Shown in pieces: positions 54,823 to 56,657 of a stretch of DNA of 64,000 nt. The notes under the pieces are model-generated. The model had not been told where the DNA came from. It did not search any database and saw nothing but the letters and a program-made list of their open reading frames with translations. Each line of letters starts with the position of its first letter. The first letter of the stretch is position 1. A program made the position numbers and the translations under genes. Source of the DNA: Devosia ginsengisoli (GTDB lineage: Bacteria; Pseudomonadota; Alphaproteobacteria; Rhizobiales; Devosiaceae); contig NZ_JANQAJ010000013.1 of NCBI RefSeq assembly GCF_024707105.1, positions 186,001 to 250,000 of the forward strand. Direction: 5' to 3'.

Positions 54823-54928
54823 TTGTCGGTCCTCGCTGTGCTGGCTTCGACCTCCGAAGCCCTGCCCCGGTTGTAGGAAAAGGGGGCGCGGCGGGATTGA
54901 AGATTTCCGACAAACGGGGGGCGGTGGG

Positions 54929-55058
54929 GCCACGCCCTCGTGGTTCGAGGCGCTGAAGAAGCGCACCTCACCATGAGGGCTACTTTTAGCTCGATGTTCC
55001 AGTAGCCCTCATGGTGAGGCGCGAGCTCTTGCGAGCCTCGAACCACGAGGGCGTGCCA
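54929..55058. repeat. Dispersed palindromic repeat, family A, variant copy 5
   Basis: A larger version, about 130 bp: CACGCCCTCGTGGTTCGAGG ... CACCTCACCATGAGGGCT, then AGCCCTCATGGTGAGGCGCG ... CCTCGAACCACGAGGGCGTG. The order of half-sites is inverted relative to the other copies, so two half-elements face each other. Lies between the epoxide hydrolase and nucleotidyltransferase genes. Confidence 0.85.
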
Positions 55059-55064
55059 CCAGGG

Positions 55065-55826
55065 TCAGGCCAGAATGGGCGCCCCAAAACCCACCACATC
55101 TGACACGCGGCGGAAACCGGCGAAGACCGCGCCGCCCCTTGCTGCCAGTTCGCGCTCGCACAGGGCGAGCAAGGCGGCGCCATCGCCCGCCGCCGCCGTG
55201 GCCATGGCAGCGGAGAGCTGGTCCGCCAGGGCAGCATCGACTGCGCGCAGGCGGCGTGGCAGCCATTTGCCGGCACCGGACCAGTGGCCTCGCCCCCAAA
55301 GCATGAGGTCGACCAGTTTGGGATAAAGCGTGACGGCGATGGCCAGCATCTCTTCCCGGTCGCGATAGCCCCGCAGGTCGTCGGCCAGGTCGGACACCTG
55401 ATAGAGCAAAAATTCCAGCCGTTCCCCATTCAGCGGCGCCGGACCGGCCTTGAGCAGGCTGGCGGCCCTGGCCCTGAGCGCCGCCGCCCCTTTGACATGT
55501 GCGCCCACGATCCGGCCTTCGACGACCATGTTGATCATGACGGGTCGGCCATTTTCGACATCGCGCCCAAGAAACACGTCGAGCGTTGCCGGGTCCTGCA
55601 CGAAGGCCTCGACCGGAAAGCCTTCCTCCACGAAGGATTCCCGCCAGGCGCGCTCCAGCCGGGGATAGATGACCACCATGTCGATATCGGAACCGATGGT
55701 GCCCTGCCCGCGCATGATCGAGCCGGCGACGAAGGCAAAATGCGCGCCGGCGAAGCGCGTTTCCAATGCATGGGCAGCGACAGCCAAAGCCTGGTTGGCA
55801 AGGATGCCCGGATGATATTGGTTCAT
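55065..55826 (-). CDS. Nucleotidyltransferase-domain protein
   Basis: 253 residues from ATG 55826 (AGGA 8 bp upstream). Pol-beta type nucleotidyltransferase: FVAGSIMRGQGTIGSDIDMVVIY at about 28-50 contains the GS..RG..SDiD catalytic signature, with a second acidic strand (TLDVFLGRD). The C-terminal half is helical. Similar stand-alone enzymes modify nucleotides, tRNA or proteins; the target here is unknown. An attenuator-like leader with terminator lies directly upstream, so expression may be conditional. Confidence 0.85.
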   Translation of the reverse strand: MNQYHPGILANQALAVAAHALETRFAGAHFAFVAGSIMRGQGTIGSDIDMVVIYPRLERAWRESFVEEGFPVEAFVQDPATLDVFLGRDVENGRPVMINMVVEGRIVGAHVKGAAALRARAASLLKAGPAPLNGERLEFLLYQVSDLADDLRGYRDREEMLAIAVTLYPKLVDLMLWGRGHWSGAGKWLPRRLRAVDAALADQLSAAMATAAAGDGAALLALCERELAARGGAVFAGFRRVSDVVGFGAPILA

Positions 55827-55860
55827 CTGATATGTCCTGGTAGGCGGACATGCGGGCATT

Positions 55861-55889
55861 AAAAAACCCCGCTCGTGTCCGGCGGGGTT
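55861..55889 (-). terminator. Intrinsic terminator of a putative attenuator
   Basis: On the minus strand, stem AACCCCGC / GCGGGGTT with a 9-base loop and TTTT tail, 35 bp before the nucleotidyltransferase start. Its 5' arm (CCCCGC) can also pair with GCGGGG inside the leader peptide gene at about 55943-55948, giving an alternative antiterminator. Confidence 0.8.
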
Positions 55890-55918
55890 GTTGACGTCAG
55901 TCCTGATCGAAAATCAGA

Positions 55919-55987
55919 TCACACGATGCCATTCCCCCGCAAGGCGGTGGTGGTGCGCATAATGGACATCATGTGGTTCGCGATCAT
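55919..55987 (-). CDS. Putative leader peptide with three tandem Thr codons
   Basis: 22 codons, MIANHMMSIMRTTTALRGNG followed by IV and TGA. Too short for the ORF track. ACC ACC ACC are three consecutive Thr codons directly before a GCGGGG sequence that can pair with the terminator arm downstream. The ATG is 7 bp from a good -10, so the transcript may be leaderless, as for the trpL leader of Sinorhizobium. No Thr-biosynthesis gene follows here. Translation is not proven. Confidence 0.55.
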   Translation of the reverse strand: MIANHMMSIMRTTTALRGNGIV

Positions 55988-55993
55988 GGCCGG

Positions 55994-56022
55994 ACCCTAG
56001 CGAGGGTGCCTGCCGCGGTCAA
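55994..56022 (-). promoter_or_regulatory. Sigma-70-type promoter of the leader
   Basis: Minus strand TTGACC - 17 bp - TAGGGT. The -10 ends 6 bp before the leader ATG, so transcription would start at or near the A of the ATG. Confidence 0.6.
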
Positions 56023-56512: not shown

Positions 56513-56657
56513 GGAGACCGTTTGGAAACTCTGCTCCAGCGGCCATCTGACGCGATATTCTGCGCTTCCGCTGCTCACGTACCTAACCTACGCTGTGCTC
56601 CGGTTCTCGAAAATCACGCCAGTTGACTCGCCGGAGCGAGTTTCCGAAACGGTCTCC
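56513..56657. repeat. Palindromic MITE-like element, family C
   Basis: About 145 bp with imperfect inverted ends GGAGACCGTTTGGAAACTCT and GAGTTTCCGAAACGGTCTCC, extending inward with CTCCAGCGG / CGCCGGAG. No ORF. It lies in the 507 bp gap between the Hpt gene and the GPR-like gene; the remainder of that gap (to 56929) shows no gene, only a weak CtrA-like TTAA-N7-GTAA at 56716. Confidence 0.7.

Follow-up and report, generated by a model that had tools for sequence, protein, structure and literature searches.

The window, that is, the whole stretch of 64,000 nucleotides from Devosia ginsengisoli that was analysed, contains on its minus strand a leader region situated between a gene for an Hpt-domain protein and a gene for a nucleotidyltransferase (Table 1). 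The first-pass annotation had described a promoter TTGACC-17-TAGGGT, a start at the ATG and an open reading frame (ORF) with ACC ACC ACC, and all of these were located on the minus strand, as were GCGGGG and the CCCCGC arm of the terminator. The A of the leader ATG (55987) is the seventh base after the -10 box, and from this distance the transcription start was predicted to coincide with the ATG. The leader promoter begins 8 nt past the stop codon of the Hpt gene. The terminator 5' arm CCCCGC is complementary to GCGGGG of the ORF, giving a predicted antiterminator pairing. Furthermore, the folding of the window leader RNA was more stable than that of dinucleotide shuffles (z = -2.98). The downstream gene more likely starts at the ATG at 55826 than at that at 55859, because AGGA lies just upstream of the former and the latter touches the T-run of the terminator.

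Table 1 Features of the leader locus and its neighbours in the window.
Feature	Position	Strand	Remark
Attenuator leader (candidate)	55987-55861	minus	between Hpt-domain gene and nucleotidyltransferase gene
Promoter	55994..56022	minus	read directly; -35 TTGACC 56022-56017, 17-nt spacer, -10 TAGGGT 55999-55994
Leaderless leader ORF (predicted)	55919..55987	minus	22 codons and a stop codon, MIANHMMSIMRTTTALRGNGIV; Thr run in all homologues
Regulatory codons ACC ACC ACC	55946..55954	minus	also 5' side of hairpin 1:2
GCGGGG	55935..55940	minus	3' side of hairpin 1:2 and 5' side of antiterminator
Small stop-codon hairpin	55903..55921	minus	nested in antiterminator loop; conserved with two-sided changes
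Intrinsic terminator	55861..55887	minus	CCCCGCCGGACACGAGCGGGG-TTTTTT, CCCCGC...GCGGGG-T6; nearly invariant in homologues
Nucleotidyltransferase gene	55065..55826	minus	253 aa, ANT/KNTase-like; Pfam NTP_transf_2 and structure model
Hpt-domain gene	56422-56030	minus	upstream neighbour of leader

Two repeats were also observed around these genes. A large nested palindrome with 35-nt and 23-nt arms lies at 54925-55061, between the nucleotidyltransferase gene and an epoxide-hydrolase-like gene; given its weak Rfam match (MIR6154), it probably belongs to the dispersed palindromic repeats. An inverted repeat at 56513-56657, upstream of the Hpt gene, has 29-nt arms that are 76% complementary and 87 nt apart.

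Conservation of the leader and its constrained parts

The genus was identified as Devosia by matching named records, and 75 of its genomes were surveyed. A close orthologue of the nucleotidyltransferase was present in 11 of them and a remote one in a twelfth, and the leader was found upstream of the gene in all 11 genomes with a close orthologue. When a covariance model of the leader (R1) was run on the genus genomes, one leader per genome was detected in those 11 and in one further genome (G003), where the leader is intact and the gene has decayed to its first codons. In genus genomes having the Hpt gene and lacking the nucleotidyltransferase, the leader was not found, and in several of the 11 leader-bearing genomes the Hpt gene is located elsewhere. 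The suggestion that the leader might be an orphan RNA was thus not borne out, since within the 75 genomes it occurred only with the close orthologue or its remnant and was absent where the gene was absent.

The search of named genomes yielded 54 related loci, 38 of which had the leader (Devosia, the Rhizobium leguminosarum/etli group, and Pleomorphomonas). With the loci of the 11 genus genomes, the leader was present in 49 loci, corresponding to 44 distinct RNAs from Devosia, Rhizobium, and Pleomorphomonas, and the leader and the gene remained paired in differing genomic settings. The usual peptide in Rhizobium was MSRIFAVSTTSTTTAPRWVVDA. No leader was found with distant homologues of the gene in Mesorhizobium, Phyllobacterium, Ensifer, Microvirga, and other phyla, and no Rfam family matched the leader in the window or at the homologous loci. 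Its presence in 49 loci indicates that the leader is more than a chance feature. A covariance search in relatives with inspection of the downstream genes had been proposed in the first-pass annotation and was carried out; the Thr run of the peptide and the pairing of the consensus structure were conserved among the homologues, and conservation of the leader together with the nucleotidyltransferase gene supports the proposal of a new regulatory target.

Among the 44 distinct leaders, a Thr run was present in all, with TT in 44 and TTT in 40, and Thr accounted for 21% of the residues. The Thr codons themselves varied (ACC 120, ACG 73, ACA 6, and ACT 4), suggesting that the amino acid is kept and not the RNA alone. 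The residues flanking the run varied freely. Several Rhizobium leaders shift the reading frame after STTTA, so that the C-terminal half of the peptide is not conserved and the remainder of the peptide appears to be free. In 48 of the 49 loci, a -35 TTGA was counted 34-37 nt ahead of the leader start codon; in the remaining locus the counted TTGA was a spurious second match beside the ATG, and the real -35 box is visible in the sequence. A 4-nt motif resembling a Shine-Dalgarno sequence was found in none of the 49 loci. From the -35 spacing, transcription in the homologues is predicted to start at the ATG, and the fixed distance together with the absence of a Shine-Dalgarno sequence suggests that the leaderless start is a conserved property. 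The conserved Thr run, the -35 spacing, the lack of a Shine-Dalgarno sequence, and the terminator all support ribosome-mediated attenuation with leaderless translation, as had been supposed from the window.

The RNA structure was also conserved. In hairpin 1:2 the Thr codons pair with GCGGTGG (GCGGGG in the window), and two-sided changes were observed among the homologues; in the stop-codon hairpin, both partners had changed in four of the five pairs. For the consensus structure, the covariation score was 0.139, compared with 0.079 for shuffled and at most 0.065 for slid versions. When the Thr region was masked, mimicking a stalled ribosome, the antiterminator folded in 25 of 25 leaders, in such a manner that the second strand of hairpin 1:2 paired with the terminator 5' arm and the stop-codon hairpin was nested in the loop. 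Compared with composition-matched shuffles, the antiterminator duplex gave z = -0.5 in the window and a mean of -1.2 over 28 leaders; the window duplex was not clearly above shuffles of equal composition, and the leaders on average were only modestly above them. The antiterminator step therefore rests on its presence in every homologue folded and not on its energy in the window.

The nucleotidyltransferase and the relatives of its leader

The GS...SDID (GS...SD-x-D) nucleotidyltransferase motif was invariant among the homologues, and the only Pfam assignment was the generic NTP_transf_2. An AlphaFold model of the protein had a pLDDT of 87, and the best Foldseek matches were ANT(4')/kanamycin nucleotidyltransferase with a TM-score of about 0.6, followed by LinB with 0.5. 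The identity to ANT(4') was only 13-14%; no resistance or ANT family model in NCBIfam and Pfam matched the protein, and a sequence search of the PDB gave no significant match to ANT. On the basis of the model, the protein is predicted to have a polymerase-beta-like nucleotidyltransferase fold and to be a putative small-molecule-modifying enzyme. A T-box was looked for before the Firmicutes homologues of the nucleotidyltransferase, and none was found.

In Rhizobium, a GNAT gene (Acetyltransf_3) directly follows the nucleotidyltransferase gene in eight loci (L060, L055, L057, L092, L062, L058, L064, and L097) and lies about 1.5-4 kb downstream of it in eight further loci. A fixed operon of the two genes was thus rejected. 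L064 is the orthologue in Rhizobium johnstonii 3841. The GNAT of these loci has no close similarity to the one at L181 that lies behind a leader and is described below.

An order-wide search with R1 gave one strong match away from the nucleotidyltransferase, the leaderless MRQMFASVTTTTTIALRWPVV, which precedes a gene for a 406-aa threonyl-tRNA synthetase (ThrRS) without the N-terminal editing domains. The same ThrRS leader was present in two more genomes of that genus, one of them with MQQRLSSLTTTTTTALRWLVV, and editing-less ThrRS genes with the leaders MNARFVTTTTTTTTTANGGLGGGCTS and MNSHFFTLTTATTTTTFSGGSSGGRAR were found on Burkholderia and Caballeronia replicons. All five ThrRS leaders were matched by R1 at 26.6-67.8 bits, and none of the five had been used in training it. 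The leaders before the short ThrRS genes hold 5-9 Thr codons, up to nine of them consecutive.

R1 was widened by the ThrRS leaders to give a second model (R2), which was run on samples of the phylum and the class. R2 detected 22 further loci in these samples, with short ThrRS (12), asd (3), aspartokinase/thrA (2), isochorismatase-like hydrolase (2), GNAT acetyltransferase (1), and unclear (2) targets. Over all searches, leaders before accessory ThrRS genes were found in alpha- and betaproteobacteria. The classic thrL-thrA leader was recovered as L179. The two isochorismatase-like hydrolase genes (L182 and L183) had the leaders MIFIEMFLTRTTTTTADGGSYGCCGWFI and MNLIQQHLTRTTTTTAPGGSCGCCGCAS, and the GNAT acetyltransferase gene (L181) lay behind the Thr-rich leader MNGSMTMTLTLTTTTLAGLAGATVR. 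The asd (aspartate-semialdehyde dehydrogenase) genes (L180, L192, and L193) had Thr/Lys-rich leaders such as MNRSRAIKTTTPKTTRCGGPSVGGMR, which are probably attenuators of the aspartate pathway. A possible leader peptide rich in Thr and Lys has been proposed in the 5'-UTR of an aspartate-metabolism gene of Sinorhizobium (PMC10117765), which accords with the asd matches. Five weak model matches (L130, L131, L133, L191, and L195) were judged to be chance or unclear.

The recovery of thrL, and the same leader type before ThrRS genes, constitute the strongest evidence that uncharged tRNA-Thr would be the signal. The first-pass annotation had named threonine from the tandem codons and had been puzzled by a nucleotidyltransferase downstream. 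The related leaders before accessory ThrRS, thrA, and asd genes uphold the choice of amino acid, and the ThrRS relatives explain the link to threonine. The regulated gene is connected with threonine in the ThrRS, asd, and thrA relatives; no such link is evident for the nucleotidyltransferase.

The short accessory ThrRS without editing domains formed one family, ThrRS2 (L138-L140, L168, L169, L174-L178, L185, L186, L188-L190, and L194). N333S and Val488, both near the active site, were common to all 16 leader-linked ThrRS2 examined. The obafluorin-resistant ObaO has known resistance changes at positions 463 and 489 (PMC11252418), and these changes, G463S and L489M, were absent from the leader-linked ThrRS2, which keep Gly463 and Leu489. 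In E. coli ThrRS, G463A confers resistance to obafluorin and borrelidin (PMC11252418). Among the Devosia housekeeping ThrRS examined (L134, which is that of the window genome at C5:84393-86066, and L196-L213), most had Ala where E. coli has Gly463 (GAFYAPK), and that of D. nitrariae (L210) had Gly463 with Met at 489. Because most Devosia ThrRS examined already carry Ala463, neither obafluorin nor borrelidin is likely to be the specific threat in this genus. A tie between Ala463 and the nucleotidyltransferase was rejected, as Ala463 occurred both with and without the gene.

Proposed mechanism and alternative explanations

We consider that the locus encodes a leaderless, threonine-specific, ribosome-mediated transcription attenuator acting in cis on the nucleotidyltransferase gene, with a probability of roughly 0.8. 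RNA polymerase would start at the ATG, and the ribosome would initiate on the leaderless mRNA. When Thr-tRNA is short, the ribosome would halt on the ACC codons and cover the 5' side of hairpin 1:2; this stall would free GCGGGG, or GCGGTGG in relatives, to pair with the CCCCGC arm, resulting in read-through and formation of the nucleotidyltransferase. When Thr-tRNA is plentiful, the ribosome at the stop codon would cover the GCGGGG strand and the terminator would form. If the leader were not translated, both hairpin 1:2 and the terminator would form. The sequence elements of this scheme and their conservation were observed, as were the pairing of leader and gene and the related leaders before accessory ThrRS genes; that the ribosome stalls, that antitermination occurs, and that uncharged tRNA-Thr is the signal is what we infer.

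Induction of the enzyme may be a defence in which a natural product inhibiting threonyl-tRNA synthetase is chemically modified. We hold this tentatively, at a little under an even chance; it is suggested by a switch that would detect failed Thr charging and by the occurrence of a spare ThrRS and of drug-inactivating enzyme classes behind related leaders elsewhere. The isochorismatase-like hydrolases and the GNAT acetyltransferase behind such leaders belong to classes that frequently inactivate drugs, and the nucleotidyltransferase has the fold of antibiotic nucleotidyltransferases. By extension, and just as tentatively, Proteobacteria may possess a dispersed inducible defence against a natural ThrRS inhibitor, in which Thr attenuators respond to uncharged tRNA-Thr as a sign of the block. 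The genes so induced would encode either a spare ThrRS without editing domains or an enzyme that modifies the inhibitor, the latter being an ANT-like nucleotidyltransferase, a GNAT acetyltransferase, or an isochorismatase-like hydrolase.

The same Thr-tRNA attenuator could instead control an enzyme that is unrelated to drugs and serves the Thr-starved state itself; its substrate might be, for example, tRNA, a metabolite, or a protein. This is a possibility of some weight that we nevertheless would not call probable. The ordinary biosynthesis genes asd and thrA are also found behind related leaders, ThrRS2 could simply raise the charging capacity, and the ObaO-type resistance residues are missing from it; however, a gene with a scattered distribution (11 of the 75 genomes) that is mobile between settings is unlike one with a housekeeping function, and the protein folds like nucleotidyltransferases that act on small molecules. 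A different sensor is conceivable as well, in which a nascent Thr/Ser-rich peptide stalls on a ribosome targeted by a drug, for example a phenicol or a lincosamide, and the enzyme inactivates that drug. Drug-dependent stalling of the nascent peptide has precedents in the erm and cat leaders, and chloramphenicol-type stalling prefers Ala, Ser, and Thr. The nearest folds, ANT and LinB, accord with such a role, and it is established that chloramphenicol and other drugs stall ribosomes in a context-specific manner (PMC13410324). We nevertheless regard a drug-sensing leader as improbable, as up to nine consecutive Thr codons before ThrRS and threonine-pathway genes fit amino-acid sensing and the positions flanking the Thr run are free to vary.

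Still less probable is that the terminated RNA of about 125 nt, or the peptide, acts mainly in trans like rnTrpL/peTrpL of Sinorhizobium; a side function of this kind is conceivable. The leaderless leader and the small terminated RNA resemble those of trpL (PMC7298713), and in G003 the leader is still intact ahead of the gene remnant, but leader and gene co-occur almost strictly, and the C-terminal half of the peptide changes frame without conservation. Finally, the structure might be the terminator of the Hpt gene with a chance ORF, as the close spacing of the leader promoter to the Hpt stop codon could suggest. Comparison of the gene settings refuted this explanation, leaving it practically no credence: other Devosia, Rhizobium, and Pleomorphomonas carry the leader at sites that are not next to the Hpt gene, and the many Devosia with an Hpt gene but without the nucleotidyltransferase lack it.

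Comparison with known systems

Attenuators are textbook regulators of biosynthesis. The attenuator proposed here would control a predicted small-molecule-modifying enzyme, and the amino acid that it reads would name the likely target of the threat, namely threonyl-tRNA charging. If this is true, leader codons could predict what a resistance-type gene defends against; the relatives of the leader would yield candidates for genes that protect against ThrRS inhibitors, and the leader itself would be a ready reporter for a natural compound. The results also add a well-conserved family of predicted leaderless attenuators that Rfam does not contain and that extends over alpha- and betaproteobacteria, and suggest that soil bacteria use this switch to notice and survive a block in Thr-tRNA charging. 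A search of the open-licence literature revealed no previous description of this leader or its target; nor did it turn up Thr attenuators ahead of genes for accessory ThrRS, nucleotidyltransferases, hydrolases, or acetyltransferases.

The thrL leader of E. coli thrABC likewise has a peptide rich in Thr codons, exclusive hairpins, and a terminator before the gene, whereas the present leader is predicted to be leaderless, precedes a nucleotidyltransferase gene, and has Thr only, with no Ile codon pattern. The enzyme shares its fold and nucleotidyltransferase motif with ANT(4') and LinB, and differs from them in its low identity (13-14%) and in its predicted control by a Thr leader. With trpL/rnTrpL of Sinorhizobium meliloti, the leader shares its predicted leaderless ORF and transcription from the ATG (PMC7298713; PMC10117765). 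The S. meliloti system uses Trp codons, has trpE as its target, and acts in trans; here the codons are for Thr and the target is the nucleotidyltransferase gene. The T-box of Bacillus thrS/thrZ responds to the signal proposed here, uncharged tRNA-Thr, and its target is ThrRS, as in the relatives described here. In the T-box the tRNA is bound directly, whereas here the ribosome would be the sensor, and the T-box covariance model of Rfam gave no match in the window or at the homologous loci. The closest parallel is the attenuator of the gene for an auxiliary indolmycin-resistant TrpRS in Streptomyces (Vecchione and Sello 2010, cited in PMC4787780). There, failing tRNA charging is answered by a protective gene under leader-peptide attenuation, which makes it the direct precedent for the ThrRS2 cases. 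The Streptomyces system concerns Trp in actinobacteria; the leaders described here concern Thr in proteobacteria and precede genes for enzymes besides a synthetase.
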